From Kineosporia corallincola (GTDB taxonomy: Bacteria > Actinomycetota > Actinomycetes > Actinomycetales > Kineosporiaceae), in NCBI RefSeq assembly GCF_018499875.1, contig NZ_JAHBAY010000005.1:124001-188000 (forward strand): a DNA stretch of 64,000 nt, given 5' to 3'. A program made the translations under genes and the position numbers. Position 1 is the first letter of the stretch. Each line of letters opens with the position of its first letter. Below are positions 6,057-59,213 of the stretch, in pieces. Under the pieces are notes generated by a model. That model was not told where the DNA came from. It ran no database searches and saw only the letters and a program-made list of their open reading frames with translations.

Positions 6057-6788
6057 TCACCAGCTGCGGGCCGCCCAGGTGGCCGAGACGATGCCCGGCA
6101 CGAAAAGGCACAGGAGAAGGGCCCATCCGCCGGTGAGCCGGCGATCCGGGTTCCTCGGGGCCGGCACGAACGGGGTGGGGCCGCTCAGCAGCAGGAACAG
6201 CGGAACGGCCACGGGCGAGACGAACATCCAGGCCCAGAACCAGGCCCAGCGGGTCGCCCGCCAGGCATGCCGGTCGATGACGATCCGCAGCAGCACCACC
6301 AGGTTCACCACCAGCAGGGCCAGCCCCAGCCCTGAGGGCAGGTGCCGGAAGCCGAGAATGCTGCTCTCGGAGGAGCGGTCCCACTCCGTGTTCACCGTCA
6401 GGTCCGGATAGGTCCGGCGCAGGTAGTCCGCGAGATCACGCTCACCGGAGAGGACCGGCCCGCTGGAGGTGCTGCCGGAACCGTCCTCGTCGGTGGTCAC
6501 CCTGACGTCGTCCTGCCGGGTGATCCCCCAGCCGCCCTCCCAGACCACGGTCTGGAGAACGGAACCGGTCTCGTTCCTCAGCAGCCCTTCGCCGCGCACG
6601 GTGACCGAGCTGATCTTCCCCTCCGCCAGATCGTTCTGGAGATTCCCGAACCGGCCCTGCCGCTCCCCCAGCAGGACCGCGAACACCACGAGCACGACAT
6701 AGACAATGAAAAGGGCCCAACGCACCCAGTCCGCCGCCTGTTTCGACGATCGGTGCGGGCGCTGCGGTTCGGTGACGATCACGTGCAC
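6057..6788 (-). CDS. Predicted membrane protein beside the retron, 243 aa
   Basis: The family is not recognised. It has an N-terminal membrane helix (about residues 22-42), a soluble region of about 110 residues rich in charged and Thr/Ser residues, and three C-terminal helices (about 155-175, 187-207, 222-240). It lies 97 nt downstream of the reverse transcriptase on the same strand, with no obvious terminator between, so it may be transcribed with the retron. Some retrons use membrane-spanning effectors, making this the natural effector candidate. It could equally be an unrelated gene. The GTG start at 6788 lacks a clear ribosome binding site. Confidence 0.6.
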   Translation of the reverse strand: MHVIVTEPQRPHRSSKQAADWVRWALFIVYVVLVVFAVLLGERQGRFGNLQNDLAEGKISSVTVRGEGLLRNETGSVLQTVVWEGGWGITRQDDVRVTTDEDGSGSTSSGPVLSGERDLADYLRRTYPDLTVNTEWDRSSESSILGFRHLPSGLGLALLVVNLVVLLRIVIDRHAWRATRWAWFWAWMFVSPVAVPLFLLLSGPTPFVPAPRNPDRRLTGGWALLLCLFVPGIVSATWAARSW

Positions 6789-24606: not shown

Positions 24607-24696
24607 GGTGAACCCTTCGGGAGATTGTGTGGACGACGCGGGCTCGCGCTCTCGCGGCGTGGTGCACCCGGACCGGGCGGGTGGGGAGACGAGGGG

Positions 24697-32977: not shown

Positions 32978-34321
32978 TCAGCCCGGCGGGTACTTCAGCC
33001 CGAGGTGGTCGCGCAGCGTGGTGCCCTCGTACTCGCTGCGGAACACCCCGCGCTCCTGGAGCAGCGGCACCACCTGGTCCACGAACGGGGCCAGCCCGTC
33101 CGGGGTGATGTGCGGGACCAGGATGAAGCCGTCCGAAACATCTTCCTGCACGAAGTGATTGATGCGCTCGGCCACCGTGGCGGGTGAGCCGATGAACGTC
33201 TGCCGTCCGGTCACCTCGATCACCAGGTCCCGGGCCGACAGCTTCTCCGCCTCCGCCTTCGCCCGCCACTCGTTCGCCAGGGCCACCGGGTCCTTGGCCA
33301 GCTGCCGCACGCTGGCGCGGCCCTTGGAGATCAGGTCGCCCTCGACCACCGGGTCACCGGCCGGCAGCGGGCCGTCCACGTCGAACCCGGACAGGTCGGT
33401 GTTCCACAGCTGCTCCAGGAAGTGGATCGCGGTCTGCGGCGACACCTGCGCCCGGCGCACCTGGTGGGCGAGTTCCTCGGCCTCGGCGTCGGTGTCGCCC
33501 AGCACGAAACTCGCCGCCGGCAGGATCAGCAGATCGTCGCGCTCCCGGCCGTATTTCGCCAGGCGCCCCTTCACGTCCTGGTAGAACGCCCTGCCCTCGG
33601 TCAGGGTGGCGTAGCGCGAGAAGATCGCGTCGGCCTGCCCGGCCGCGAACTCCCGCCCGTCCTCGGAGTCACCGGCCTGGAAGATCACCGGCCGGCCCTG
33701 CGGCCCGCGCGGCACGTTGAACTGGCCCTCGATGTCGAAGAACCGGTCGTGGTGGGAGAATCGGCCCGGCTCGTCGGTGTTCAGGAACCGGCCGGCCTCG
33801 GCGTCGGCGACGATCTCCACGCCGTTCCAGGAGTCGAACAGCTCGGTGGCCGTGGCCAGGAACGTGCGGGCCCGCTCGTACCGGTCCTCCTGCGCCAGAT
33901 AGCCCCCACGCCGGAAGTTCTCACCGGTGAACCGGTCCCAGCTGGTCACCACGTTCCAGGCCGCCCGGCCCCCGGACAGGTGGTCGAGGCTGGCGAACTG
34001 CCGGGCCACCTCGTAGGGCTCGTTGAACGTCGAGTTGATCGTGCCGGTGAGGCCCAGCCTCTCGGTGACCGCGGCGAGCGCGGCCAGCACCGTGAAGGTG
34101 TCGGGCCGGCCGACCACGTCCAGGTCGTGGATCAGGCCCTTCTGCTCCCGCAGGCGCAGGCCCTCGGCCAGGAACAGGAAGTCGAACTTCCCCCGCTCGG
34201 CGGTCTGCGCGAACCGGCGGAAGGAGTCGAACTCGATGTGGCTGCCGGCGGCCGGGTCGCTCCAGACCGTGGTGTTGTTGACGCCCGGGAAGTGCGCAGC
34301 GAGGTGAATCTGCTTGACCAT
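32978..34321 (-). CDS. LLM-class flavin monooxygenase (NtaA/SnaA/DszA type), 447 aa
   Basis: The start KQIHLAAHFPGVNNTTVWSDPAAGSHIEFDSFRRFAQTAERGKFDFLFLAEGL is diagnostic, as is LDHLSGGRAAWNVVTSWDRFTGENFRRGGYL. The long RPVIFQAGDSEDGREFAAGQADAIFSRYATL region binds flavin phosphate. The active site opens on NNTTVW, a variant of the ...GHH/GQH stretch in its paralogues, pointing to another substrate. C-terminal GTTLRDHLGLKYPPG closes the fold. Lies 9 nt after another LLM gene in the leader-controlled operon. Confidence 0.92.
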   Translation of the reverse strand: MVKQIHLAAHFPGVNNTTVWSDPAAGSHIEFDSFRRFAQTAERGKFDFLFLAEGLRLREQKGLIHDLDVVGRPDTFTVLAALAAVTERLGLTGTINSTFNEPYEVARQFASLDHLSGGRAAWNVVTSWDRFTGENFRRGGYLAQEDRYERARTFLATATELFDSWNGVEIVADAEAGRFLNTDEPGRFSHHDRFFDIEGQFNVPRGPQGRPVIFQAGDSEDGREFAAGQADAIFSRYATLTEGRAFYQDVKGRLAKYGRERDDLLILPAASFVLGDTDAEAEELAHQVRRAQVSPQTAIHFLEQLWNTDLSGFDVDGPLPAGDPVVEGDLISKGRASVRQLAKDPVALANEWRAKAEAEKLSARDLVIEVTGRQTFIGSPATVAERINHFVQEDVSDGFILVPHITPDGLAPFVDQVVPLLQERGVFRSEYEGTTLRDHLGLKYPPG

Positions 34322-34330
34322 CGGTCCCTC

Positions 34331-35536
34331 TCAGGCGTTCGCGTAGCGGTTGGCGGGCCGGGGCAGTCCGAGAAGGTCTCGCAGGGACGCCTTCTCGGGG
34401 TAGGCAGTGCGGAACAGTCCGCGCCGTTGCAGCTCCGGCACCAGACCCCGGGTGATCCCGGTCAGGTCGTGCGGCAGGCTGGCCGGGCGCAGCCGGTAGC
34501 CGGTGATCCCTGCCTCCTGCCAGCCGGCCAGCAGGTCGGCGACGGTGGACGGCGTTCCGGCCACGATCTTCGCGTCACTGGTGTACTCGGTGCCGGCCAG
34601 CTCGTTCAGCCGCTCCAGCCGATCGCGGGCAGCCTGCTCGGTGTCGTCGATCAGCACCACGAGATCGGCCCACACGTGCACCTTCTCGTGCTCCCGCCCG
34701 GCCGCCCGGCGCTGGGTGTCGATACGCCGCGCCAGGTCCGCGGCCTGGGCGTCGTCGTGCGGGGTGACGAAGCCGAGATCGGTGGCCCGCCCGATCAGCC
34801 GGTACGGCGCGTCCGCGTGGCCGAGGGCCGCGACCAGCGGCTGGCCCTGCGGGGGCCGGGGCGTGATCGAAGGGCCCTTGACCGAGAACCAGCGCCCGGT
34901 GAAGTCGATGTAGTGCAGCTTGTCGCGGTCGACGAACCGGCCGGTGGCGACGTCCCGGATCTCCGCGTCGTCCTCCCAGCTGTCCCACAGCCGGCGCAGC
35001 ACCTCCACGTAGTCGGCGGCCTCGTCGAAGTACTCGGCGAACCGGGCCTGCACGTCGGGTTCATTGATCCGGTCGAGGTCCAGAGACGGTAGCTCACGTC
35101 GTCCAAAATTTTCGGCGGAGTCGGGACGGACCGCGAGCTGCACCCGCACCCCGGCCCGCCCCTGGGCGACGTAGTCCAGGGTGGCGACGGCCTTGGACAG
35201 GTGGAACGGCTCGGTGTGGCTGACGATCGCGGTCGGCACCAGCCCGATCGAGTGCGTCAGCGGGGCCACCCGGGCGGCGATCAGCACCGCGTCGAGACGC
35301 CCCCGCACCCGGTCGGCGCGCCGGTCCTGGGTAGCGAACTCGTCGGACTGGAGGTTCAGCGCGTCCTCGACGGTGACCAGGTCGAGCAGCCCGCGCTCGG
35401 CCTCCAGCACCAGGTCGGCCCAGTACCGCGGCGAGAAGAGCTCTTTCGGCCGGGCGCCGGGCTCCCGCCAGGCCGCGGGGTGCCATCCGGCCCCGTCCAG
35501 GGCGACGCCGAGGTGGAGCGGTCGATCGGTGGTCAT
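34331..35536 (-). CDS. LLM-class flavin monooxygenase, 401 aa
   Basis: Diverged member: LHLGVALDGAGWHPAAWREPGARPKELFSPRYWADLVLEAERGLLDLVTVEDAL opens the barrel, with HPAAW corresponding to the substrate-side loop. TRITLV-type strands are replaced by VAPLTHSIGLVPTAIVSHTEPFHLSKAVATLDYVAQGRAGVRVQLAV. Both neighbours in the operon (an LLM gene and a DUF1684 gene) are directly adjacent, the latter overlapping by 4 nt. It may act on a precursor or product of the partner enzyme's substrate. Confidence 0.9.
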   Translation of the reverse strand: MTTDRPLHLGVALDGAGWHPAAWREPGARPKELFSPRYWADLVLEAERGLLDLVTVEDALNLQSDEFATQDRRADRVRGRLDAVLIAARVAPLTHSIGLVPTAIVSHTEPFHLSKAVATLDYVAQGRAGVRVQLAVRPDSAENFGRRELPSLDLDRINEPDVQARFAEYFDEAADYVEVLRRLWDSWEDDAEIRDVATGRFVDRDKLHYIDFTGRWFSVKGPSITPRPPQGQPLVAALGHADAPYRLIGRATDLGFVTPHDDAQAADLARRIDTQRRAAGREHEKVHVWADLVVLIDDTEQAARDRLERLNELAGTEYTSDAKIVAGTPSTVADLLAGWQEAGITGYRLRPASLPHDLTGITRGLVPELQRRGLFRTAYPEKASLRDLLGLPRPANRYANA

Positions 35537-36321
35537 GGGAGGGTCTTTCCCTTCTTCTCGCCGGCCTCGATCGCCACCGGCAGGCGGTTCTCCGGGGGCG
35601 GCAGCGGGCAGGTGGCCAGCGGCGTGTAGGCGCAGGGCAGGTTGGCGGCGCGGTTGAAATCGAGGACGACGCTCCCGTCCGCCCCCGGCGCCGGCACCTG
35701 GAGCGAACGGTTGGCCGCGTACGTGGTGACGCCGGAGGTGGCGTCGGTGAACAGCACGGTCAGGGTGCCGGGGGCGTGCCCCTCGAAGGCGGTGAGGGTC
35801 AGGGCCTGGCCGTCGATCTCGAAGGTCAGTTCGCCGGGCGCGTCGTAGACGTGCTCCAGTCCCTCGACCGCGGCGCCGACGGTGACCGGGCGGGGTGTCT
35901 CGAACGCCCGGTAGGTGGCCGGCACCACCCAGCGCTCGTCCGGCTCGTAGCGCGGGGTGCCGTCGTAGGCGCGCAGGATGTCGTGGTGCGGGTGCCGCGG
36001 GCGCACGATGTCGTGCCCGCCCCGCTTCGCCACCTCGATCACCGCGTCACCCCAGGTGGCGAACACGCTGGCGCGCTCGGGCAGCACGCCGAAGGAGTAC
36101 CGGCCGGAGTGCTTCTCGTCGTCCACCAGGATGGTCTCGCCCTCGCCGAGCTCGACGCTCACACCGCCGGGCCCGGTCGACCACGCCCCGGGCGCGTCGT
36201 CGAAACGCTGCGGCGCCTCCTCCAGCCAGTGCAGGCCGGTGATGGCCAGGAAGCCGTGCGGGTCGGCCAGTTTCGCCTCGCGCTCGCGGGTCCACTCCTG
36301 CCAGTCGGCGATGAACGTCAT
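35533..36321 (-). CDS. DUF1684 family protein, 262 aa
   Basis: Shows the DUF1684 pattern: DWQEWTREREAKLADPHGFLAITGLHWL at the start and, near the C-terminus, DFNRAANLPCAYTPLATCPLPPPENRLPVAIEAGEK. The family has no established activity. It overlaps both neighbours by 4 nt (ABC ATPase upstream, LLM enzyme downstream), so it belongs functionally with the import and oxidation of the operon's substrate. The conserved DFN...PCAY...PPPEN block may form an active or binding site. Confidence 0.88.
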   Translation of the reverse strand: MTFIADWQEWTREREAKLADPHGFLAITGLHWLEEAPQRFDDAPGAWSTGPGGVSVELGEGETILVDDEKHSGRYSFGVLPERASVFATWGDAVIEVAKRGGHDIVRPRHPHHDILRAYDGTPRYEPDERWVVPATYRAFETPRPVTVGAAVEGLEHVYDAPGELTFEIDGQALTLTAFEGHAPGTLTVLFTDATSGVTTYAANRSLQVPAPGADGSVVLDFNRAANLPCAYTPLATCPLPPPENRLPVAIEAGEKKGKTLP

Positions 36322-37946
36322 GGTCGTGCTCCTTCTTCCGTCAGAGTGCGGCCGGGGATGGCGGCCAGCAGCTCGCGGGTGTAGTCGTGCTGCGGATCGG
36401 TGAACAGGTCGTGGGTGGTGCCGGTCTCCACGATGCGCCCGTGACGCATCACCGCCACCCGGTGCGCGATCCGGCGCACCACGGCCAGGTCGTGCGAGAT
36501 GAACAGGTAGGCCACGCCGGTGTCGGCCTGGAGCTGCACCAGCAGCTCCAGCACCTGCGCCTGCACCGACACGTCGAGCGCGGAGACCGGCTCGTCGCAG
36601 ACCACCAGGCCGGGCGACAGGGCCAGCGCCCGGGCGATCGCCACCCGCTGCCGCTGGCCGCCGGACAGTTCCGCCGGGCGCCGCCGGGCCAGGGCGCCGG
36701 GCAGGGCGACCCGGTCGAGCAGGTCGTGCACGCGGGCCTGCCGCGAGGCCCGGTCACCGACCCGGAACACCCGCAGCGGTTCCTCGATCGTCTCGGCCAC
36801 GGTGAACCGGGGATCCAGTGAGGCGTAGGGGTTCTGGTAGATCAGCTGGGCCCGGCGACGCAGCTGCCGGGTGGCCGCCGGGCCGGAGCGGGTGATGTCC
36901 TCGCCGTCGAACCGGATCGTGCCGGACGTCGCCTCGGCCAGCCGCAGCACCAGCCGGCCGGTGGTGGACTTGCCCGACCCGGACTCCCCCACCAGCGCCA
37001 GCGTCTCGCCCCGGCCGATGTGGAAACCCACGTCGTCGACGGCCTTCACGGCGGCCGGGCCGGCCGCGGTGCGGGGCAGGGGGAACACCTTGGTCAGCCC
37101 GGACACCTCGACCAGCGGCGAGCCCGTGACTCTTCCCGCGGCCTTTCCGGCCGGGACCGGCCTGCTGCTGGGGACACTGGCCAGGAGCTTCTTCGTGTAC
37201 GCATGCCGCGGGTCGGCCAGAACGGCTGCGGTGGGCCCGGTCTCGACCACCCGCCCGCCGGACATCACGACCAGCCGGTCGGAGCGGTCGGCCGCCACCG
37301 CCAGGTCGTGGGTGACCAGCAGCACCGCCGCGCCAGAGGCCGCGACCAGGTGCTGGAGGTGGTCGAGGATCACCTTCTGCACGGTGACGTCGAGGGCACT
37401 GGTCGGCTCGTCGGCGATGATCAGCTTCGGGTCGGCCGCGACGGCGATCGCGATCAGCACCCGCTGCCGCATGCCGCCGGACAGTTCGTGCGGGTACTGC
37501 CGGGCCCGGGTGGCCGCGTCGGGAAGGCCGGCCCGGTCGAGGATGCCGATCGCCCGCGCCGCCGCGTCCCGCCGGTTCGCCAGGCCGTGCAGCCGCAGCA
37601 CCTCGGCCACCTGCTCGCCGATCCGCTTGACCGGGTTCAGCGACACCGCCGGGTCCTGCGGCACCAGGCCGATGCCCGCGCCACGCACCGTGCGCAGCAC
37701 CCGCGGCGGCGCGTTCTCCAGATGCTGCCCACCGAACAGGATCTCGCCCCGGTCCACGGTGGCGTTGCCGGCCAGCAGCCGCACCACGGCGTGGGCCGTG
37801 GTGCTCTTGCCCGAGCCCGACTCCCCCACCACCGCCACGATCTCGCCGGGCGCCACCGTCAGTGACACCCCGTCCACCGCCGGCACCGGCCCGGAACGGG
37901 TGCGGTACGACACGGCCAGGTCCCGGATCTCCAGCAACGGGCTCAC
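36318..37946 (-). CDS. Fused ABC transporter ATPase (OppD-OppF type), 542 aa
   Basis: Two complete nucleotide-binding domains in one chain. Domain 1 (about 1-265): GESGSGKSTTAHA, LSGGMRQRVLIAIAVA, LIIADEPTSALDV. Domain 2 (about 275-542): GESGSGKSTTGRL, LSGGQRQRVAIARALA, LVVCDEPVSALDV. Each ends in the Opp-type tail (PRHAYTKKLLASVPS and PQHDYTRELLAAIPG). A GTG start overlaps the permease stop as GTGA. The fusion replaces the separate pair used by the 18-20 kb transporter. Confidence 0.93.
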   Translation of the reverse strand: MSPLLEIRDLAVSYRTRSGPVPAVDGVSLTVAPGEIVAVVGESGSGKSTTAHAVVRLLAGNATVDRGEILFGGQHLENAPPRVLRTVRGAGIGLVPQDPAVSLNPVKRIGEQVAEVLRLHGLANRRDAAARAIGILDRAGLPDAATRARQYPHELSGGMRQRVLIAIAVAADPKLIIADEPTSALDVTVQKVILDHLQHLVAASGAAVLLVTHDLAVAADRSDRLVVMSGGRVVETGPTAAVLADPRHAYTKKLLASVPSSRPVPAGKAAGRVTGSPLVEVSGLTKVFPLPRTAAGPAAVKAVDDVGFHIGRGETLALVGESGSGKSTTGRLVLRLAEATSGTIRFDGEDITRSGPAATRQLRRRAQLIYQNPYASLDPRFTVAETIEEPLRVFRVGDRASRQARVHDLLDRVALPGALARRRPAELSGGQRQRVAIARALALSPGLVVCDEPVSALDVSVQAQVLELLVQLQADTGVAYLFISHDLAVVRRIAHRVAVMRHGRIVETGTTHDLFTDPQHDYTRELLAAIPGRTLTEEGARP

Positions 37947-38839
37947 CACTGGCCCACCTCCCCGTCGAGGGCACGCGCGATGCGGTTGGTGGCCAGCACC
38001 GTCGCGGCGATGGTCAGGCCCGGCAGCGTGGTCAGCCACCAGGCGTTGGCCAGGTAGTTACGGCCGTCGGAGATCAGCGTGCCCCACTCCGGCGCCGGCG
38101 GCGGGGCGCCGTAGCCGAGGAAGCTCAGGCTCGACACCGCCAGGATCGACGTGCCGAACTCCAGCGTGGCCAGCACCAGCACCGGCCCGATGCTGTTCGG
38201 CAGCACGTGCCGGCCCAGCACCGTGAACCAGCGCGCGCCACTGCCCCGGGCCGCCTCCACGTACACCGCGGTGCGCACCCGCAGCACCTCCGAGCGCATC
38301 ACCCGGGCGAACCCGGCCACGTTCGCCACCCCGACCGCGACCGCGACCTTGGTGGTGCCGTAGCCCAGGGCCGTCACCACCGCCAGTGACAGGAACAGCG
38401 TCGGGATCGACAGCACCACGTCGACGAACCGCATCACCACGTCGTCCACCCACCCGCCGGCGAAACCGGCCACCAGGCCCAGTGTTCCGCCCACGACGAA
38501 CGCGAACAGCACCGCGATCAGGGTGGCCCGCAGTGACAGCTGCGCGCCGTGCACGACCCGGGCGAACAGGTCACGGCCCAGGCTGTCGGTGCCGAACCAG
38601 TGCGCCGCCCCCGGCGCGGTGAAGTTCTCCTCCGGCACTCCGCGGGCCGGGTCCTGACCGCTGAACACGCCGGGGGCGAAGGCGGCCACGGCCACCAGCA
38701 CCACCAGCACGAGCGACAGCACCAGGCCAGGCCGGCGGGCCAGGAAGAGCAGGGTGCGCCGCAGTCCGCTCTGGCCTGTTATCACTGGTGCGGTCGCCGG
38801 TTCCAGGTCCAGGCCGTCGATCAGGATCTGCTCACTCAC
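37943..38839 (-). CDS. ABC transporter permease, OppC/DppC type, 298 aa
   Basis: Six helices; AAHWFGTDSLGRDLFARVVHGAQLSLRAT is the OppC signature loop after the first helix, and ARGSGARWFTVLGRHVLPNSIGPVLV carries the ATPase-coupling EAA loop. The GTG start (SEQILIDGLDL) overlaps the stop of the preceding permease by 4 nt; the open frame further upstream is antisense-like. Its first 25 residues are cytoplasmic. Confidence 0.92.
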   Translation of the reverse strand: MSEQILIDGLDLEPATAPVITGQSGLRRTLLFLARRPGLVLSLVLVVLVAVAAFAPGVFSGQDPARGVPEENFTAPGAAHWFGTDSLGRDLFARVVHGAQLSLRATLIAVLFAFVVGGTLGLVAGFAGGWVDDVVMRFVDVVLSIPTLFLSLAVVTALGYGTTKVAVAVGVANVAGFARVMRSEVLRVRTAVYVEAARGSGARWFTVLGRHVLPNSIGPVLVLATLEFGTSILAVSSLSFLGYGAPPPAPEWGTLISDGRNYLANAWWLTTLPGLTIAATVLATNRIARALDGEVGQW

Positions 38840-39801
38840 GCCGTCACCACCCCCGCGGGCCGGGCCGGGGCCAGCACGATCCGCGGGTCCAGCACCGGGT
38901 AGACCAGGTCGACGAGCAGATTGACGACGACGAACACCAGCGCCCCGTAGACCACCACTCCCTGCACCACCGGGATGTCCTGTGCCGTCACCGCGGCCTG
39001 GGTGACCCGCCCCAGCCCGTTGCGGGAGAACACCGTCTCGATCACCACCGCGTTGGCCATCAGCTGGCCGACCAGCAGCCCGGCCACGGTCAGGGCGGGC
39101 AGCGAGGCGTTGCGCAGCGCGTGCCGCAGGTGCACGTGCACCCGCCCCGCGCCCTTGGCCCGGGCGGTGCCGATGTACGGCTCGTCCAGCGTGGTGCTCA
39201 GGCTCTTGGCCAGCACCAGCGCGATCTGCGCCCCGGTCGGCACGGCCAGCGTGAGGGCCGGCAGCACCAGGCCTTTCAGCCCGTCGTTGCCGAACGCCGG
39301 GAACCACGGGTTCCGGAACGAGAAGAACTGCACCAGCATCAGCCCGACCCAGAACGTCGGCACCGAGACCCCCAGCGGCGGCAGCGACAGCAGCACCTGC
39401 CGCAGCCACCGCCGGGAGCTGTAGGTGGCGGCCAGCGCCAGGCCACCGCCGAACAGGAAGGCCAGGCCCAGCCCGGTGGCGGTGAGCAGCAGGGTCTGCG
39501 GCAGCGCCTCGGTGATCATCGAGGCGACCGGGCGGCCGGTGGCCACCGAGTCACCCAGGTCACCGGTCAGGGCCCGGCCCAGGTGCTCCGCGTACTGGAG
39601 GGGAAGCGGCTGGTCGAAACCGTATTCGTGACGCAGGGCCTCGATCCGGGCCGGGTCGACCGGTGCGGAGTCCATGCCCGCCCCGGCCATCGCCGACACC
39701 GGATCGCCCGGCAGCAGCACGAGGATGAAGAACGACAGCGTGTACGCCGCCAGGAGCACCCCCACCGCCTGGGCGATCCGCCTGATCACGTAGCGGGTCA
39801 C
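38836..39801 (-). CDS. ABC transporter permease, OppB/DppB type, 321 aa
   Basis: Opens TRYVIRRIAQAVGVLLAAYTLSFFILVLLPGDP, the standard OppB first helix ending in L-P-G-D-P. A periplasmic loop with EYGFDQPLPLQYAEHLGRALTGDLGDS follows. The coupling loop is EPYIGTARAKGAGRVHVHLRHALRN. GTG 39801 overlaps the last base of the binding-protein stop (TAGTG). Confidence 0.92.
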   Translation of the reverse strand: MTRYVIRRIAQAVGVLLAAYTLSFFILVLLPGDPVSAMAGAGMDSAPVDPARIEALRHEYGFDQPLPLQYAEHLGRALTGDLGDSVATGRPVASMITEALPQTLLLTATGLGLAFLFGGGLALAATYSSRRWLRQVLLSLPPLGVSVPTFWVGLMLVQFFSFRNPWFPAFGNDGLKGLVLPALTLAVPTGAQIALVLAKSLSTTLDEPYIGTARAKGAGRVHVHLRHALRNASLPALTVAGLLVGQLMANAVVIETVFSRNGLGRVTQAAVTAQDIPVVQGVVVYGALVFVVVNLLVDLVYPVLDPRIVLAPARPAGVVTA

Positions 39802-41408
39802 TACTCGACCCAGGTGTCGTGCAGCTGGATCCGGCTGGACGCCTCGAAGTTCAGGTCGTGCACCCGCTTCGCCACCCCCAGCTTGGTCTGGAGTTCCACC
39901 ACCGGCACCACGAAGGCGTTCTGCACGACGGTCTCCTGCGCGGTGGCGACCAGCTCGTCCCGCGCGCCCTGGTCGATCGTGCCGGCCTGCTCGGTCAGGG
40001 TCTCGTCCAGTCCGCTCTCCGGCAGCCGGTACGGGTTGACCAGAGCGGTGGAGAACTGGGTGCGCAGGATGTCCGGGTCGGCGCGGGTCACGTTGCCCCA
40101 CACCAGCTCGTAGTCGCCGCCCTGCACCACCGAGGCGTACTGCGAGATCTCGGCCTGCTTCAGCTGCACCGTCACGCCGATCCCGGCCAGTTGCTGCTGC
40201 ACCAGTTCCAGCGCGGGCTGGTTGGTGGGCGAGTTGGCGAACCAGGTGATGGTGAAGGCGAGTTGCTTGCCGTCCCTGGTCCGGGTGCCGTCGGCCCCGG
40301 CTTTCCAGCCGTCTTGCTCCAGCAGGGTTTTCGCCTTCTCGGCGTCGTGGGTCAGTTGCGCGGACAGGTCCTCGTAGCCGGGTGTGGTGTGGGCCAGCAC
40401 GCTGGTGGCGGGCTCGGTGCCGCTGTTGAACACGGTGTCGGCGATCTGCCGGCGGTCCACGCCGTAACTGATCGCCTGGCGCACCGCCTCGTCCTTCAGC
40501 ACCGGGTTCTCGTTGTTGGCGGCCAGGTTGAACACCACGCCCGGGTTGGCCCGCGCCTGCAACGTGGCCCCGGACGCCTCCAGCGCGCTCTCGTCGGCGC
40601 GGGCCACGTTGCCGATGGCGTCGACCTGCCCGGACTGGAGGCTGCCGGTGCGCACCCCGGCCTCCGGCAGGACCTTGAACACGACCTGGTCGAGGTAGGC
40701 CTCGCCGTCCTTCTTCCACAGCGACGAGCCCCACGCGTAGCCGGTGCGCTTCTTCAGCGTGATCGACTGGTTGGGCGTGTACTCGCCGAGGGTGAACGGG
40801 CCGGACCCGACGATGCCCTGGGTGCAGCGCTCCTGCGCCGAGAGTTTCGTGCTGGCCTCCGACACGATGCCCAGCGAGTGAGTCGAGGTGGCTTGCAGGA
40901 ACTGGGCGTTGGGCTGGGCGAACTCGACGGTGAGGGTCTGGTCGTCGTCGGCGGTGATCTTTTCCACGCCGCTCAGGTAGCCGGTGGCCAGGCCGGCCAG
41001 CACCCCCAGGCCGGGCACGGCCTCGAAGTTCTCCTTCACCACCCCGGCGGTCAGCGCGGTGCCGTCGCTGAAGGTGACGCCGTCGCGCAGGTGGAAGGTG
41101 AAGGTGGTGGCGTCGTCGCTGATGTCCCAGCTCTCGGCCAGCCAGGGCACGATCTCACCGGTCTGCGGGTCCTGGTCGGTGAGCGAGTCGACCAGCTGGC
41201 GCACCGAGTAGATGGAGTCGTTGCTGGCCACCTGCTGCGGATCGGTGCACCCGGTGTCGGAGCCGACCGCGAAGGTCAGCGTGCCACCGGTTTTCGGCGC
41301 GGCGCTACCACCGGCGTCGTTCGCACCGGAGCCCGAGCCGCAGCCGGCCAGCACGAGCACACCGGCGGTGAGCCACAGGGCGGGGGCGTGCGTCAGCTTT
41401 CTTCCCAC
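39801..41408 (-). CDS. ABC transporter substrate-binding lipoprotein (SBP family 5), 535 aa
   Basis: Signal and lipobox: LTAGVLVLAGCGSGSG. The family 5 core is evident (VPWLAESWDISDDATTFTFHLRDGVTFSDGTAL), and so is the hinge-region VVFNLAANNENPVLKDEAVRQAISYGVDR. GTG start. It is the first structural gene behind a Cys-codon leader peptide and attenuator-like hairpin, which links the whole operon to cysteine or sulfur status. Ligand unknown. Confidence 0.93.
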   Translation of the reverse strand: MGRKLTHAPALWLTAGVLVLAGCGSGSGANDAGGSAAPKTGGTLTFAVGSDTGCTDPQQVASNDSIYSVRQLVDSLTDQDPQTGEIVPWLAESWDISDDATTFTFHLRDGVTFSDGTALTAGVVKENFEAVPGLGVLAGLATGYLSGVEKITADDDQTLTVEFAQPNAQFLQATSTHSLGIVSEASTKLSAQERCTQGIVGSGPFTLGEYTPNQSITLKKRTGYAWGSSLWKKDGEAYLDQVVFKVLPEAGVRTGSLQSGQVDAIGNVARADESALEASGATLQARANPGVVFNLAANNENPVLKDEAVRQAISYGVDRRQIADTVFNSGTEPATSVLAHTTPGYEDLSAQLTHDAEKAKTLLEQDGWKAGADGTRTRDGKQLAFTITWFANSPTNQPALELVQQQLAGIGVTVQLKQAEISQYASVVQGGDYELVWGNVTRADPDILRTQFSTALVNPYRLPESGLDETLTEQAGTIDQGARDELVATAQETVVQNAFVVPVVELQTKLGVAKRVHDLNFEASSRIQLHDTWVE

Positions 41409-41507
41409 GTAAGGGGTACTCCTCGTCCGCGAGGGATCCGGCAGGCCGGCGAACGCCGCGGACAGGCGGCGTCAGCTCACGGCCGGATCAGGGTGTCGGG
41501 GAAAATG

Positions 41508-41540
41508 CCGGGTGCGCAACGCGGTTCGCGCGGCACCCGG
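41508..41540 (-). promoter_or_regulatory. Attenuator-like hairpin between leader peptide and operon
   Basis: CCGGGTGC and its exact complement (8-bp stem, 17-nt loop) start 20 nt beyond the leader stop. A second stem, ACGCCG/CGGCGT type, follows near 41455-41475. Ribosome stalling in the leader could select between structures. Confidence 0.5.
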
Positions 41541-41559
41541 TTCATGACGGGCGGGGCTT

Positions 41560-41646
41560 CTAACGGCAGAGGGTCTGGCGACAGAGGCTGGTGCACACGC
41601 GCAGAAGATCGACGTGCCGGCGCCGGGAGAACCGGTGGTTCTTCAC
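41560..41646 (-). CDS. Cys-containing leader peptide, 28 aa
   Basis: A 28-codon frame with strong GAGGAGG ribosome binding site, starting VKNHRFSRRR and continuing HVDLLRVCTSLCRQTLCR. The (H)VDLxRV core with Cys codons at the end is a pattern I know from short putative leader peptides upstream of sulfur-assimilation and sulfonate-uptake operons in actinomycetes. It has three Cys codons (18, 22, 27). A promoter, TTGACC-17-TAGCGT, sits 29 nt upstream. Expected to couple operon expression to charged tRNA-Cys. Confidence 0.75.
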   Translation of the reverse strand: MKNHRFSRRRHVDLLRVCTSLCRQTLCR

Positions 41647-41674
41647 ATTGCCTCCTCAGCAGCCGACTCCCCTC

Positions 41675-41703
41675 ACGCTAAGCCGCGACTGCATTCAGGT
41701 CAA
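41675..41703 (-). promoter_or_regulatory. Promoter of the leader-SBP operon
   Basis: Minus strand TTGACC (41703-41698), a 17-bp spacer, and TAGCGT (41680-41675). Spacing is ideal for a housekeeping sigma factor. The leader peptide starts 29 nt after the -10. Confidence 0.7.
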
Positions 41704-41708
41704 TGCAT

Positions 41709-41727
41709 ATAGACAAGATAGACAATG
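41709..41727 (-). promoter_or_regulatory. Tandem TAGACAA motif just upstream of the -35
   Basis: ATAGACAAG and ATAGACAAT are directly repeated end to end (9-bp period), 6 nt beyond the -35. The second gives TAGACAATG, the same nonamer as at 54386 and, on the other strand, at 51911. The position fits an activator site. Confidence 0.55.
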
Positions 41728-41901
41728 TGTCCGGCATCTCGTCCGGTTATGCCCTGCTACGTGCGCTTTTCCGTGCCTCGCCCGGACGGCCGTCCCCGCT
41801 CCCACGCCCCGATCCCGTTCCCGGCGGCCCCCGTGAACCCCCGGTGAAAGTGATTGCATACCCCTCGTCTCAGACGCATACGCCTGCATACAGTTGCATC
41901 C

Positions 41902-42897
41902 ATGAGCGCTGAGGACACGAGGATGAGCGCCCGGGACGCCATCTACTCGGCCCTGCGGCGCAGGCTGATGGCCGGCCACTACCGGGAGGCCGGGCCGCTG
42001 GTGCCGACCGCGCTGAGCGAGGAGTTCGGCGTGTCCCGCACCCCGGTGCGCGAGGCCCTGGCCCTGCTGGAGCGGGACGGCCTGCTGATCGCCGGCAGTC
42101 GCGGTTTCACCGTGCGCCGGCGCAGCATCGAGGAGACGCTCGAGATCTTCGAGGTGCGAGCCGTTCTCGACTCCGCCGCCGCCTCGGCCGCGGCTCTGCA
42201 ACGCAGCTCGATCGACCTGGCCAAGCTGGAGGAACTGCACCGCCGGGCCACCGCCGTCACCGACGCCGACGGCACCGCCCCGGACGAGACCGCGCACCAG
42301 GCGGTGCGGGCCCTGTTCAACCAGTGGCACGACTGCATCCGGGCAGCCGCGCACAACCGCACGATCCTGAGCGTGCTGCACACCCTCGACGCCCAGGTGA
42401 AGTCGAGCGCACCGTGGACGCCCGCGCCGGCCGCCACCTCGTTCGCCGACAGCCACGCCGAGCACGCCCGCATCCTCGACGCGATCCGCCGCACCGACGC
42501 GGAGGCCGCCCGCACCGAGATGCTCGACCACCTGGCCCGCGACCGTGACGTGCGGGTGCGTCACCTGGTCGCCCAGTCCCTGGAACTACCCGGCGACGAG
42601 GCCGGACCCGTGGACGGACAAGCGATCTCGCCCCGGATCACCGTCGTCGGGCTCACCGGCACCGCACCCGTGGTGAGGGCTGCCGACGCCGTGGTCAGCA
42701 CAACCGGGGCCGTGATCAGCACGAGCGGGCCCGTCGCCAACCACGCCGGGCCTCCCGTCGCCACTGCTGGATCCCTGGTCAGCGCTGCCGGGTCCGGGGC
42801 CGACGCGGCCGGGTCCGCGTTCGGCGGCGACATCGGCAGCACGGGCGACGACACCGCCCCCGGCTTCCCGGTTCCTCTGCCCGGAGAGTGTCCGTAG
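41902..42897 (+). CDS. GntR-family (FadR/FCD) transcriptional regulator, 331 aa
   Basis: The N-terminal wHTH is complete: AIYSALRRRLMAGHY, LVPTALSEEFGVSRTPVREALALLERDGLLIA. An FCD effector domain follows (about 70-220) with FEVRAVLDSAAASAAA, FNQWHDCIRAAAHN and HAEHARILDAIRRTDAEAA, including the metal-ligand His positions. Beyond residue 225 is a 100-residue Ala/Gly/Thr/Ser/Val tail that is absent from ordinary family members. Repeated GCATAC-like sequences lie just upstream of the start and may be its operator. It heads the LLM-ThiM-ABC operon and probably regulates it. Confidence 0.9.
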   Translation: MSAEDTRMSARDAIYSALRRRLMAGHYREAGPLVPTALSEEFGVSRTPVREALALLERDGLLIAGSRGFTVRRRSIEETLEIFEVRAVLDSAAASAAALQRSSIDLAKLEELHRRATAVTDADGTAPDETAHQAVRALFNQWHDCIRAAAHNRTILSVLHTLDAQVKSSAPWTPAPAATSFADSHAEHARILDAIRRTDAEAARTEMLDHLARDRDVRVRHLVAQSLELPGDEAGPVDGQAISPRITVVGLTGTAPVVRAADAVVSTTGAVISTSGPVANHAGPPVATAGSLVSAAGSGADAAGSAFGGDIGSTGDDTAPGFPVPLPGECP

Positions 42898-51866: not shown

Positions 51867-51919
51867 CCTGACGGTATTCGTCAGGTTAACCCGCTCGTTC
51901 GACCACTGTCCATTGTCTA
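51867..51919. promoter_or_regulatory. Dyad and TAGACAATG motif upstream of two LLM genes
   Basis: CCTGACG-GTATT-CGTCAGG (51867-51885) is a perfect 7-bp dyad. CATTGTCTA (51911-51919) reads TAGACAATG on the minus strand, exactly as at 41719 and 54386. Both fall in the 128-nt gap before the 51810 start, the only sizeable gap within 49.6-54 kb. Confidence 0.55.
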
Positions 51920-52835: not shown

Positions 52836-54062
52836 TCACCGGCTCCCGGTCAGGGACGCCGCGCGGCGGCGTCCGGCGGGCGCCACCGGCAGGCCGAGAT
52901 GACCTCGCAGGGTGCGGTTCTCGTAGCCGTCGCGGAACAGGCCGCGACGGCGCAGCTCGGGCACCAGGTGCTCGGTGAACGCCTCCAGCGCGTCCGGGCC
53001 GTCGCCTCCGGGGACGACGTCGAAGCCGTCCGCGGCCCCCGCGCGCACCCAGCGCTCCAGCTCGTCGGCGACCCGGCCGGGGGTGCCGGCCACGGCCCGG
53101 TGACCGTCGCGGCGGGCCGGCAACGGCGTGACCTCGCGGGCCTCGTGCTCGGTGCTGCTCAGCAGGGTGGTGACGGCGGGCAGCACCAGCACCGCGTCCG
53201 GGTCGCGGCCCGCGGCGTGGGCGGTGGCCCGGACCGCGGTGCGGAAGGCGCGGGAGCGCGCGATGCCGGCCCGCTCGCCCCTGCCGTGCTCGGGGTCGCG
53301 GTTGTCGTGGGCGGTGGATCGTGCGTGGATCACCACGTCGGCCACCCCCGCGACCTCCGCGCCGCCCGGCCAGACCAGCACCGGGCGTCCCTGGGCCGAG
53401 AGAAGGTCGTTGCGGCGGTTCCAGCGGGCCAGCACGGCGCCCACCGCCTCGGTGCGGCGGCGGGCCCGCTCGGGCCGGCCGGGCTCTTCGAGGGCACCGA
53501 AACGGGCTGCGCCGGTAGGGTTGTCCGAACCGACGTGCCAGCCCACCCGGCCGCCGCTGAGGAAGTCCAGGTCGGCCAGGCGGCGGGCGAGCTCCAGCGG
53601 GTCGCCGTGAGCGGCGGGCAGGGTGCCGATCAGGCCGATCCGCTCGGTGACGGCGGCGAGCCGGGCCAGCAGGCCGGCCGGGTCGGGACCGTCGTCGGTG
53701 AGGGTGACCGCGTCGAGGCCGGCCGCCTCGGCGAGGCGGACGGCGGCGAGCAACCGGTCGATGTCGGCCGGACGACCGGGTGCGGCTTCACGGCCGGGTG
53801 CGGCCCTACCACTCGATGCGGCTTCACCACCCGGTGCGGCTTCACGGCCGGGTGCGGCCCTACCACTCGATGCGGCTTCACCACCCGGTGCGGCTTCACG
53901 CGCCGGCTCGGCCACGCCGCTCGGCTCGCTGATACGGCTCGGCTCGGCCACCCGACCGGGCCCGGCCACCCGGCTCGGTCGGTTCACGGCGGCGGTCGCA
54001 CCCGTGGCTCGCGGCGCGGCCCGGGGCGGGAGGGTCAGGGTGAGGTGGATCCGGCGGTTCAT
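52836..54062 (-). CDS. LLM-class flavin monooxygenase with repeat insertion, 408 aa
   Basis: The barrel begins NRRIHLTLTLPPRA and resumes at DIDRLLAAVRLAEAAGLDAVTLTDDG; in between is a 75-residue Ala/Pro/Gly/Arg/Glu stretch from a 54-bp DNA repeat, located where paralogues have the substrate-loop after strand 1. The rest is standard: LDFLSGGRVGWHVGSDNPTGAARF, ENRTLRGHLGLPVAPAGR at the end. First gene after the third leader peptide. Whether the insertion leaves it active is unclear. Confidence 0.85.
   Translation of the reverse strand: MNRRIHLTLTLPPRAAPRATGATAAVNRPSRVAGPGRVAEPSRISEPSGVAEPAREAAPGGEAASSGRAAPGREAAPGGEAASSGRAAPGREAAPGRPADIDRLLAAVRLAEAAGLDAVTLTDDGPDPAGLLARLAAVTERIGLIGTLPAAHGDPLELARRLADLDFLSGGRVGWHVGSDNPTGAARFGALEEPGRPERARRRTEAVGAVLARWNRRNDLLSAQGRPVLVWPGGAEVAGVADVVIHARSTAHDNRDPEHGRGERAGIARSRAFRTAVRATAHAAGRDPDAVLVLPAVTTLLSSTEHEAREVTPLPARRDGHRAVAGTPGRVADELERWVRAGAADGFDVVPGGDGPDALEAFTEHLVPELRRRGLFRDGYENRTLRGHLGLPVAPAGRRRAASLTGSR
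53781..53900. repeat. 54-bp tandem repeat, 2.2 perfect copies, inside an LLM gene
   Basis: Two identical 54-bp units (53781-53834, 53835-53888) plus 12 bases of a third. Each unit encodes an 18-residue Ala/Gly/Arg/Glu/Ser block on the minus strand. Perfect identity suggests very recent or frequently rearranged duplication. Confidence 0.9.
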
Positions 54063-54363: not shown

Positions 54364-54400
54364 CCTACATTGTCAATCATTTCTGTAGACAATGTAGGCT
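54364..54400. promoter_or_regulatory. Divergent operator and leaderless promoter of the SsuD-like gene
   Basis: CCTACATTGTC and its exact complement GACAATGTAGG (11-bp arms, 13-nt centre, 54364-54398) form a strong operator. It contains TAGACAATG. On the plus strand TTGTCA (54370-54375) and TAGGCT (54395-54400) could be -35/-10, and the ATG at 54407 is then only 6 nt away, implying a leaderless transcript. Confidence 0.65.
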
Positions 54401-55658: not shown

Positions 55659-58600
55659 TCAGCCGGCCGCCAGGTGACGAATCTCCTCGACGACGTGGTC
55701 AGGTTCGGCCAGGCACTTCCAGAGGGGCACCCGCAGTACCGCCACCTCGTCCCCAGAGGCACTGTCGACGACGTCCAGCCTGGCCAGAACACGACGCAGG
55801 GCCCGCCCGTCCGGGTCCCCGCCTGGATCGTCCACCAGGACCGCGACCCCCTTGCCGGGACCCGAGACCAGCAGATCGACGGGATGTCCCGCGAAATGCG
55901 GGTCCCACCGCACGGTGAACCCTGACGCGCGCAGTCCCCCGATGAGCCGGTCCACGGAGCGCTCACCGTCGAGCTGAACCGGCGCAGACGTCGCCGGTGG
56001 TTGTGCCAGCTTGCTCAGCAGGCCGTTCTGCCCGGACCACCACGATCGATCGCCCACGACGATCAGCTGGGACTTGGCCCGGGTGATGGCTACGTTCCAC
56101 AGGTTGGTCTGCCCGACGAGCCAGCCGCGGGTGCGTTCGGTGATACCCGAGGCGCCCACCGCCGAGATCACCATGACATCACACTCACTGCCTTGAAACT
56201 TGTGCACCGTCGCGCATTTCACCCGACCGTCCAGACCGGCGGCCCGCAGCTCGCGGACCAGGAGCTTCTGGTGGGCCGACAGCGGGGTCACGACGCCGAT
56301 CGACGCCGCCGGATACGTCCGGCACAGTTGCTCGACCTCGGCGACCACGGCCCGGGCCTCGGTGTCGTTCTGGCCCGATCCGGTGACACCGCGGGTGAAG
56401 TGGCCGGTGACGTCCACCCACCGGAATGCCTCGTCGGCCGGCGCCTTCAGACTCTCCGGGGAGGTCAGCACAGTGAGCCGCCCCTGATAGACCACCTGGT
56501 TGGGTACACCGATGATGTTCGGGTGGCACCGGTAATGCTGGTCCAGAAGATGCGACTGCCCCGCCGCGAGGGCGAACGCATCGTAGGCGGAATCCTTTTC
56601 GTACAGAAGACGGCGTTGCGCCATCCAGCCTTCGCCCAGGCCCGCGCGAGCCCGCTGGTCCCGGTCGTCCTCCGGCGACAACTGCACCACCGGTGTCAGC
56701 TGTCTGGGGTCCCCGATGACGAGAACCCGCCGGGCCCGGAAGAGCATGGGGAGGATCGCCGGGATGGTGCACTGGGCGGCCTCGTCGATGATCACCAGAT
56801 CGAACATCGCCGGTTTCAGAGGAAGCACGCGCGCAGACTGTGTGGTCACCGCCCAGCCCGGAACGGCTGCCAGCATCGCCGGCTGCTGACTCCAGCTGCG
56901 CGGACGGTCGCCCGACATCTCGTCCGCGCGCTTGCGCAGCAACTCCTGGTGGGCGGTGACCCGCTGGACGATCTGGGCCTTCAGCAACTGACGGCTGTGC
57001 TCGACGAGCGGCTCCCAGCGCAACTCCCCCCACATCGCCTCCACGCTCGAGGGCAGCATCTCCAGGGACATGCGGGTGTCACGCCAGCACAACTCGGTGA
57101 ACGCCCCGTCGCGCAGCTCGGCAATGGCCTCACGATCACCGACACCTTGTCTGCGCAGCTGCCACCGATGCCACCATCCGGTCCACCGGCTGTCCAGCGC
57201 CCGGCCGGTTCTCACGACAAGTTTCTTCAGTTCGGCATCGCCGTCCGGAAGCGACAGGCCACTGACCCGATCCCGCTCGACCGCCAGCGCGGCCAGATCC
57301 CGTTCCAGCAGGCGCCAGGTGTCGAGGTCCTTGCGGATACGCTCGGTGGTCTGGGCGAGCAGCCGGAGTTCCTCACGAGGCGTGCGCTCGTCAGGAACCG
57401 AAGATCCGTTTTTGGGGACTCTTTCGAGGATCTCGGCCAAGAGCTCGGGTTCTTTGGCCTGTTCTTTCTTGTTGCCGCTCCGCAGCAGCAGCCCAGGACC
57501 GACTGTTCCGGATATCCGATCGACCACCTGATCGACCGCCTGGTTGTTCGTCGAGCCGATCAGCACGCTCTGGCCCATGGCGGTCGCCGTGGCCAGCAGT
57601 GCACCGACGAGCTGGCTCTTGCCTGTTCCCGGCGGTCCCTGCGCGACGGTGAGTCGCGAGGACATCGCGGCTCGGATGATCTCTTCCTGGGTTTCGCTCA
57701 CCTTCTCTGGTGACACCGCGACGACATTGATGTCCGGCGAGTTGTCCAAGTCGCCGGTCAGCGCCGCGAGCGCCGTGCCCGCGATCTGCCCCGGCTGCTT
57801 GGCGATCCCCTCGAGGTCCTGGGTCAGCCGGGCCACCGGTGAGCTGCCGGATCCGGCCGAGAAGAGAAATCCCGCGTTCTGCACCCGGTTGAACGGCCCG
57901 CGCCGGACCGTTCCCGTCAGGTTCGCCGGATCCAGCGCGGTCACGGGTCGCAGGTCGAAGGTCGAGGCGACACGACTGGCGGTCTGCCCGAGCGAGTCCA
58001 GATCCCCGGGGACGAACGTCTCGCCCACGGTCCGCTGCAACTCGTCCGCCTCCACGGCAGACAGGTCGTAGTGGTCGATCAGCGCCGGGCTGGGCCGGGG
58101 CGGCTGGGGATGGAGCAGCCCGTCGTCGCCGACGGTCAGATCGCACACCAGGAGCGGCGCCAGCCACACCTGCCGCTGGCCTCGCCGTTGCAGCGCGACC
58201 ACCGGATAGCCGTACTGGAGCTGCTGTTCCTTGTCCGGAGCGGACTGTACGAGGGCTCGTGCCGAGTCCCAGAGCGGTACCGGTTCCACCGACGAGAGCA
58301 CGGTCTCCGGTCCTGACGGGGCTGCCGCGTACGTCTCGTACCGGCCGGCGTCAACGAAGAACTCCAGCACGGCGCTTCTGCGCAGACAGGCGACGTAATA
58401 GCTGAGCAGACGCCGCCATTGGTCGGCATCGAAGGGCGTGTCGTCCGGCGCACGGTGTTCGGCCACGGTCCTCCGCTGCCGGGGCGTCTGCGACGACGCC
58501 ACCAGGCGGATAGGCTCGGTCACGCCTTCACTCGACTCGACGGGAGCCTGCTGCCGGCGCGACATCTCGGCCATCACGTACCGGGACAGGTCGCTGGTCG

Positions 58601-59213
58601 TGATCCAGCCGTCCTCGGAGGTCGCCTGTGCCTCGCCCCGCAGACCGTTGAGCACGGCCTCGGTGAACAGGGACGGCTTGTCGGACCCCTGCGCCTTGGA
58701 CTCCTTGTCGTACGGGCTCGACTGGAGCATGTAGGTGCCGCGCTCGTACCTGCCACGACGTGGTTCCTGGCGCACGGCACCGGTGAAACGGTGCCGCGCG
58801 GTGAACGATCCCGAGAAACAGCAATCAAGCAGCACGATCTTCTGGCTGGCCTTGGTGATGTTCAGCATGTGCCGGAGGATGCCGTCGACGTCGAACGCGG
58901 TGGCGTGAAAATTGCCCGCCCGGGTATCAGTCGCCGCGAGAAACACGGACTGCCGGTCGACATGCCTCAGCCCGTGGCCCGAGAAGTAGAACAGCGCGAG
59001 GTCCCCGGGGCCCCGGGCGCCGTAGAACTCCTCCACGACGTGCCGCATCTCACCGGCCGTCAGGTCGAGATGAGATTCGGCGGTGTCGAAGTCCCCGTCG
59101 GCATCGAGAACGGCCTTCAGCTCCTCGACATCGCGCCGGACGCCGGGTAGAGGCGTGAGCGTACGGTCCTCCCGGTGGACCGAGGTACCGAGAAGCAACG
59201 CGTGCCGCCCCAT
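55659..59213 (-). CDS. Caspase-like protease fused to SF1 helicase and REase-like domain, 1184 aa
   Basis: Domain 1 (1-240): caspase/metacaspase fold, with catalytic His80 in FYFSGHGLRH and Cys131/132 in LLDCCFSGS. Domain 2 (about 500-1060): superfamily 1 DNA2/NAM7-type helicase, Walker A QGPPGTGKSQLV (525-536), Walker B VIIDEAAQC (807-815), GDPRQLTPV, YRCHPNII, TVHKFQGSE and VAITRAKSQL. Domain 3 (1085-1184): restriction-endonuclease-like core with PVDLLVSG and AVLVDDPGG; the acidic residue usual in ...E-x-D-G is Leu, so cleavage may be lost. Region 250-500 is unassigned. It is one base overlapped with the EACC1 gene. The layout points to a defence or programmed-death system. Confidence 0.85.
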   Translation of the reverse strand: MGRHALLLGTSVHREDRTLTPLPGVRRDVEELKAVLDADGDFDTAESHLDLTAGEMRHVVEEFYGARGPGDLALFYFSGHGLRHVDRQSVFLAATDTRAGNFHATAFDVDGILRHMLNITKASQKIVLLDCCFSGSFTARHRFTGAVRQEPRRGRYERGTYMLQSSPYDKESKAQGSDKPSLFTEAVLNGLRGEAQATSEDGWITTSDLSRYVMAEMSRRQQAPVESSEGVTEPIRLVASSQTPRQRRTVAEHRAPDDTPFDADQWRRLLSYYVACLRRSAVLEFFVDAGRYETYAAAPSGPETVLSSVEPVPLWDSARALVQSAPDKEQQLQYGYPVVALQRRGQRQVWLAPLLVCDLTVGDDGLLHPQPPRPSPALIDHYDLSAVEADELQRTVGETFVPGDLDSLGQTASRVASTFDLRPVTALDPANLTGTVRRGPFNRVQNAGFLFSAGSGSSPVARLTQDLEGIAKQPGQIAGTALAALTGDLDNSPDINVVAVSPEKVSETQEEIIRAAMSSRLTVAQGPPGTGKSQLVGALLATATAMGQSVLIGSTNNQAVDQVVDRISGTVGPGLLLRSGNKKEQAKEPELLAEILERVPKNGSSVPDERTPREELRLLAQTTERIRKDLDTWRLLERDLAALAVERDRVSGLSLPDGDAELKKLVVRTGRALDSRWTGWWHRWQLRRQGVGDREAIAELRDGAFTELCWRDTRMSLEMLPSSVEAMWGELRWEPLVEHSRQLLKAQIVQRVTAHQELLRKRADEMSGDRPRSWSQQPAMLAAVPGWAVTTQSARVLPLKPAMFDLVIIDEAAQCTIPAILPMLFRARRVLVIGDPRQLTPVVQLSPEDDRDQRARAGLGEGWMAQRRLLYEKDSAYDAFALAAGQSHLLDQHYRCHPNIIGVPNQVVYQGRLTVLTSPESLKAPADEAFRWVDVTGHFTRGVTGSGQNDTEARAVVAEVEQLCRTYPAASIGVVTPLSAHQKLLVRELRAAGLDGRVKCATVHKFQGSECDVMVISAVGASGITERTRGWLVGQTNLWNVAITRAKSQLIVVGDRSWWSGQNGLLSKLAQPPATSAPVQLDGERSVDRLIGGLRASGFTVRWDPHFAGHPVDLLVSGPGKGVAVLVDDPGGDPDGRALRRVLARLDVVDSASGDEVAVLRVPLWKCLAEPDHVVEEIRHLAAG

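Follow-up and report, generated by a model that had tools for sequence, protein, structure and literature searches.

A widespread actinomycete leader peptide with a single conserved cysteine codon precedes a monooxygenase/transporter operon of Kineosporia corallincola and is a putative cysteine-responsive attenuator

Cysteine-rich leaders are already known in mycobacteria. Cysteine-responsive attenuation in Mycobacterium smegmatis was reported by Canestrari et al. 2020, as related in the available portions of PMC13236596, PMC9094748 and PMC9031893, and the accessible text of PMC4633059 describes ribosome occupancy on a Cys-rich ORF located before the cysA2 ortholog of this species. Leaders with runs of Cys codons were predicted for Mycobacterium, P. 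acnes and B. longum by Seliverstov et al. 2005 (PMC1262725, available in part). The reannotation of S. lividans lists eight leader peptides, none of which is assigned to Cys in the available part of that paper (PMC8079986). A rule requiring an invariant UGU codon was not found in the accessible text of the literature searched; Canestrari et al. 2020 and D'Halluin et al. 2023 could contain it.

The window analyzed here is a stretch of 64,000 nt from the genome of K. corallincola. Its minus strand carries a leader ORF of 28 codons, VKNHRFSRRRHVDLLRVCTSLCRQTLCR followed by a stop codon, which was recognized by translation and homology and extends from GTG at 41646 to TAG ending at 41560 (41646-41560). 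A Shine-Dalgarno (SD) sequence, GAGGAGG (41657-41651, minus strand), and a promoter-like site, TTGACC-17-TAGCGT (minus strand; -35 at 41703-41698, -10 at 41680-41675), were read by eye. The latter pair is near-identical in five of five aligned Kineosporia sequences, but a strict consensus scan reported no promoter and no terminator; a strong promoter had been proposed here in a sequence-only reading of this DNA. No known element was returned by an Rfam search of the window at the gathering threshold. Judged by its own SD sequence, its promoter-like site and its conservation in place, the leader ORF is real.

The gene encoding a putative substrate-binding protein (SBP_bac_5; 39801..41408, minus strand; best NCBIfam match TIGR04028, below its cut-off) starts with GTG at 41408, 151 nt past the leader end, and heads an operon extending to 32978 on the same strand. 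Domain searches assigned the following genes to two permeases and a double ATPase of an Opp/Dpp/Nik-type ABC transporter (36318..39810), a DUF1684 protein (35533..36321) and two luciferase-like monooxygenases (32978..35536). The last monooxygenase of the operon scores 405.7 against the NtaA/DmoA model (cut-off 279.7), the other one lying just under this value (263.9). We infer that the operon probably serves sulfur scavenging. The divergent genes encode a GntR/FCD regulator (41902..42897, plus strand; domain search), a third monooxygenase, a hydroxyethylthiazole-kinase-type protein and a permease. Repeated GCATAC/TGCAT elements located before the GntR gene (41854-41903, plus strand) are largely kept in three of four aligned relatives and probably constitute a GntR site. 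Elsewhere, segments 33620-34095, 17425-18064 and 23495-24620 all match the same stretch (1-1135) of L146, a relative, at 66-86% and probably represent paralogous monooxygenase genes of the window. A protein of 1184 aa encoded inside the monooxygenase cluster (55659-59213, minus strand) resembles a caspase-type peptidase in its first part and a helicase thereafter; the stretch carrying its gene has no blastn match longer than 250 nt in the regions of the relatives, and a defence function is possible.

A search with the leader peptide found it in five of six Kineosporia genomes (that of K. corallincola included), and in the four relatives carrying it the leader always lies ahead of the same binding-protein gene, in agreement with the 28-codon frame originally proposed at this place. 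The promoter-like site, SD sequence and leader align among these genomes, and the region past the leader varies in both length and sequence. Five relatives were named in the search with the binding protein, three of them from Kineosporia; just upstream of the Actinomadura relative (L015) no such leader was present. In the sixth Kineosporia genome, that of K. rhizophila (L014), a monooxygenase-type gene immediately precedes the gene of the binding protein, and a leader of a second kind sits 4.3 kb upstream of the latter. K. rhizophila was therefore ruled out as a leaderless exception, the locus being rearranged so that the operon stands behind this second type of leader. If its genes form one transcript, the operon lies behind a family leader in all six genomes.

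The window itself contains such a second leader, MKRGPLLTSVRWLDLSRVSSARC followed by a stop codon (leader 2; 54340-54269, minus strand), which was identified by alignment of a leader of this kind with the window and was not among the matches listed by profile searches. It reads WLDLSRV where the first leader has HVDLLRV, and its conserved Cys is likewise encoded by UGU. The gene found 206 nt after leader 2 (52836..54062, minus strand) probably encodes a luciferase-like monooxygenase, as judged from its counterparts in two relatives (L059 and L060), which cluster with a Bac_luciferase protein. Alignment further revealed an element common to the promoters of both leaders, CATTGTCTA, located at 41719-41727 (minus strand) upstream of the first leader; at the leader 2 promoter (54368-54394, minus strand) it begins CATTGTC-N13-GACAATG. 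This element is probably the operator of a shared regulator. A further copy is present between two monooxygenase-type genes (51911-51919, plus strand) and a fourth copy in the window at 6708 (minus strand). In three Kineosporia genomes, leaders VDYVWVASSLCRS and VDYARVASSLCRI (L222, L223, L212) were observed about 20 kb from the operon, upstream of putative MetQ/NlpA-like lipoproteins; a tblastn search with one of them revealed no counterpart in the window.

The protein family model NF042934, named "putative leader peptide", matched the window ORF with 22.9 bits (E 4.6e-5, as protein) and, in a genome-wide search, with an E value of 0.0024, in both cases below the curated cut-off of 27 bits by which membership is assigned. 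Another leader of the same genome, located 164 nt before a sulfite/nitrite-reductase-type gene, scores 27.2 bits and exceeds the cut-off. Among 98 genomes of the class (that of K. corallincola included), 74 match NF042934 at E up to 5e-4, 67 of them above the cut-off, and none of 14 control genomes match; in the genome-wide search, run under a loose limit (E up to 10), ten of 14 control genomes match too, none above the cut-off. A purpose-built profile of 28 rows (A2; threshold E up to 2e-4) recovered five of seven class members and none of 73 genomes from other classes of the phylum. The matches to the mycobacterial models leader_Ms4527A and leader_Ms5788A of NCBIfam were weak (18.4 and 11.7 bits, respectively; cut-offs 45). 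On this sequence evidence, the window ORF belongs to a widespread family of actinomycete leader peptides.

For comparison of family members, 112 of at least about 150 matches from the class survey, taken best first, were read as DNA (30 loci and 80 stretches, two of the latter with two leaders), and 14 further loci were added. In this first set, a first regular expression, which required DL, parsed 118 leaders from 124 loci once four rows that were false or duplicated had been removed; the sampling favours high-scoring members. Eight loci missed by this expression were read separately, and all have UGU. Five Kineosporia leaders of binding-protein genes brought the set to 131, and removal of one duplicate (L061) and addition of 12 leaders gave 142 (set D), followed later by five more.

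The next gene of each of the 118 leaders was determined by crude gene calling within a distance of about 0.85 kb; 20 BLAST cluster representatives were annotated and the remaining genes were placed by cluster. With these gene calls, 90 of 118 leaders are followed by sulfur-type families. Short ORFs upstream of sulfur-type genes, our own reading of NF042934 rather than a curated requirement, are thus seen in most of the leaders compared, and the likeness of the window leader to actinomycete sulfur-operon leaders, noticed in the sequence-only reading, is supported. The next genes encode 36 rhodaneses, 27 NIR_SIR proteins and 6 cysteine dioxygenases (all three over the Pfam threshold only; NIR_SIR cannot separate sulfite from nitrite reductases), 7 cysteine synthases, 5 CysH, 6 binding proteins, 5 luciferase-like monooxygenases (NtaA type by best match), 4 ROK regulators, 2 SfnG, 2 SDF symporters, one unassigned pair and 16 singletons. 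The singletons include CysD, SsuE, MetY, a TauD-like, two SsuA-like and one SsuB-like protein; cysteine synthase, CysH, SfnG, CysD, SsuE and MetY exceed their NCBIfam cut-offs, and the TauD, SsuA and SsuB assignments are best matches below cut-off. The 28 next genes not recognized as sulfur-related include those of binding proteins, monooxygenases, regulators and unrelated products, e.g. a 2-oxoacid oxidoreductase subunit. All six binding proteins form one cluster, which includes a Kineosporia ortholog of the binding protein of the window (one of the six). Around a homologue of this protein in Actinomycetospora (L016), five leaders with the motif occur within 21.5 kb. Leaders L080, L098, L108 and L116 are located upstream of ROK-family regulators (L108 was scanned), possibly regulators of a sulfur regulon.

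The Cys residues of the window leader are arranged as C-TSL-C-RQTL-C, and the sequence-only reading had proposed that terminal Cys codons bring about attenuation. The comparison does not bear this out, since only one of these codons (UGU, 41583-41581, minus strand), recognized by its fixed spacing from the VDLxR motif, is conserved family-wide. One to three Cys residues are present in 108 of 118 relatives. In a gapless peptide alignment the last conserved Cys lies 11 residues past the His/Ala of [HA]VDLxR, and 117 of the 118 leaders in the first set share this spacing. The codon at this position is UGU in all 141 leaders of set D (n = 142) that encode Cys, the one exception having a stop codon instead, and in all five leaders added later, i.e. 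in 146 of 146. This count includes ortholog groups, which are not independent of each other, but synonymous sites nearby do vary. Two leaders are devoid of Cys at this position: L105 (plus strand), with the stop codon, and the third leader of L016, which has Thr and lies outside set D. By contrast, UGU accounts for 4.1% of Cys codons in the pooled downstream genes, and the other Cys codons within the leaders of set D are UGC (117) and UGU (28). The conserved Asp is encoded by GAC in 90 and GAT in 28 leaders of the first set, and the Arg at position -6, present in all 118, by CGC (70), CGG (25), AGG (11), CGT (9) and CGA (3). This Arg is replaced by Trp in L222 and L223 and by His in L210, and VDN, VDY and VDF variants of the motif were also recovered; all of them carry UGU. 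Invariance of UGU while Asp and Arg codons vary indicates that the peptide is selected as a peptide and its Cys codon also as a codon. The conserved element, as read from these alignments, is one Cys encoded by UGU at fixed spacing from R..xVDLxR, not multiple terminal Cys residues.

Both tRNA-Cys genes of the genome have the GCA anticodon, so UGU must be read by wobble; no second tRNA-Cys species was found (54 of 55 tRNA matches typed; genome 97% complete). A G:U wobble followed by a pyrimidine is a setting of weak decoding, and 126 of 130 leaders have C or U right after UGU. Rare regulatory codons are also known from leu leaders. The codon might act alone, a slow UGU making one Cys sensitive to tRNA charging, with VDLxR serving another purpose, e.g. 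initiation or ribosome rescue. We consider this unlikely, given that the same Cys spacing recurs in 117 of 118 leaders and that the near-invariant Arg is specified by five different codons, which together tie peptide-level selection to the Cys position. Still less probable, in our assessment, is that UGU forms part of an RNA or DNA site (a protein, sRNA or RNase target) whose translation is incidental. Such a site would explain third-base invariance at UGU alone, and a second, weaker codon preference, that of Ser at position -3 for AGY (70 of 76 in the first set versus about 29% in downstream genes), would also accord with it; however, conservation lies mostly at codon positions 1 and 2 and fades within two bases past the UGU codon. 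Moreover, no consensus structure was found for the leaders, nor a fixed pairing partner of UGU between -60 and +12, although one leader-internal stretch is more folded than its shuffles (z -0.92).

In classical attenuation, an intrinsic terminator would lie between the leader and the first gene. Folding revealed a GC-rich hairpin after the leader, CCGGGTGC...GCACCCGG (41540-41508, minus strand; -25.1 kcal/mol), followed by only four U. The 8-bp hairpin described in the sequence-only reading thus belongs to a stretch that does fold, but its sequence is not conserved and a role as terminator is unsupported. Across the 142 leaders, terminator-like hairpins are no more frequent than in shuffled sequences (1 versus 3.2 with at least four T in six, and 17 versus 16.6 with at least three), and neither these nor the scan of the window provided the intrinsic terminator of a trp-type attenuator. 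Over the initial 40-60 nt at and past the stop codon, folding is slightly stronger than in shuffles (mean z -0.3 to -0.46; mostly about -0.1 further on). The stable hairpin and this tendency notwithstanding, attenuation at an intrinsic terminator appears highly improbable.

C-rich, G-poor RNA is the expected appearance of a Rho entry region. The untranslated stretch after the window leader (41409..41559, minus strand) is of this kind and constitutes a candidate, its skew, defined as (C-G)/(C+G), being 0.19, 0.24 and 0.06 per successive 50 nt; the corresponding values for leader 2 are -0.12, 0.22 and 0.18. In the family (n = 142) the skew rises from about 0 upstream to 0.215 over the 50 nt that follow the stop codon, is 0.180 over the next 50, and then decays. 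It is 0.179 in 45 leader-to-gene segments versus 0.021 in 31 ordinary intergenic segments (p 2.5e-7), these controls coming from the window and nearby-genus loci, with crude gene calls, fewer genera than the leaders and no matching by genus. Such an excess of C over G fits Rho-dependent termination between leader and gene as a matter of composition, which is no proof, and may have other causes than Rho entry.

Alternatively, a stalled ribosome could free the SD sequence of the first gene from pairing with the leader. Cysteine genes of M. smegmatis are described under such translation attenuation in the available parts of PMC13236596 and PMC9031893, and removal of the leader slightly raised the predicted SD accessibility in our set, from 0.277 to 0.330 (n = 73, p 1e-4; six loci with doubtful gene starts left out), an effect that any shortening could have. 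The pairing is not specific, however: native leaders close the SD no more than swapped-in ones (p 0.22, n = 73), and the first-gene SD of the window is predicted to be equally closed in both states (accessibility 0.28 free versus 0.25 stalled). We therefore regard translation attenuation of this kind as unlikely in the family.

The reading that we prefer, with a probability of roughly 0.75, is that the ORF acts in cis as a cysteine-responsive leader attenuator. In the mechanism that we infer, the signal would be tRNA-Cys charging: when Cys-tRNA is scarce, slow decoding would cause the ribosome to pause at the single invariant UGU, assisted by the nascent segment R..xVDLxR located 6-13 residues ahead of the conserved Cys. 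Paused a few codons before the leader stop, the ribosome would bar Rho, or else a translation-blocking structure, from the C-rich RNA, and this would allow expression of the transporter/monooxygenase operon. With ample cysteine, it would terminate and leave, and transcription would end early. The sign of this response is assumed from physiology. A simple rule of activation by starvation does not predict six leaders of the type WRRVHMDLxRYAGCVCRPS (L067-L070, L072, L073), whose next genes form one BLAST cluster with cysteine dioxygenase as its scanned member (L070); this enzyme degrades Cys, the opposite of scavenging. Also weighing against the attenuator are the NF042934 score of the window leader, the 28 next genes outside recognized sulfur families, the two leaders devoid of the conserved Cys, the substitutions of Arg at -6, the negative skew just past leader 2, the small skew control, the folded leader-internal stretch and the Actinomadura relative. 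We put the contribution of the nascent chain at even odds and hold that of Rho more tentatively. A bolder proposal, to which we give somewhat less credence again, is that the leaders are class-wide arrest peptides sensing Cys at one UGU, where R..xVDLxR would render the ribosome hypersensitive at this very codon, with its weak decoding, and the pause would gate Rho. Through thiomethylation at A37 by MiaB, the sulfur state of tRNA-Cys might even be sensed at UGU, in addition to its charging.

The prediction of a "Cys-rich leader" is hereby narrowed to a precise one, in which function would reside in one codon and about six residues. A signature that can be read from the sequence would link sulfur supply to monooxygenase/transporter operons whose role is poorly understood. 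If true, the family would represent an amino-acid sensor in which a nascent-chain motif and a single obligatory synonymous codon act together, and would provide a marker for locating the sulfur regulon in Actinomycetes.

The closest described relative is the cis_reg_atten family NF042934, which shares motif and length with the leaders described here and whose model covers the protein only. Like the polycysteine sORFs of mycobacteria, the window leader is a Cys-containing uORF before putative cysteine/sulfur genes; unlike them, it has no consecutive Cys codons, the family conserving a single Cys. The mycobacterial sORFs are leaderless, and the window leader is preceded by an SD sequence and, some 30 nt upstream of its start codon, by a -10-like site. 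The leaders of PMC1262725 resemble this family in lying near cys operons without obvious terminators, for which the authors weakly suggested Rho, but they are distinguished by runs of Cys codons, and neither a VDLxR motif nor a codon rule is described in the available text of that paper.

In their constant spacing and in the conservation of Asp and Arg, the leaders are also reminiscent of arrest peptides. In one of these, TnaC, encoded by the tna operon of E. coli, nascent residues are conserved close to the place where the ribosome stalls at the ORF end, and transcription terminates downstream, as far as the available descriptions go. Conserved residues at fixed spacing from UGU are present here as well, which makes this codon the candidate stall site. 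TnaC senses free Trp and stalls at its stop codon; in the leaders of Actinomycetes, the stall would occur at a sense codon for the very amino acid that is sensed.
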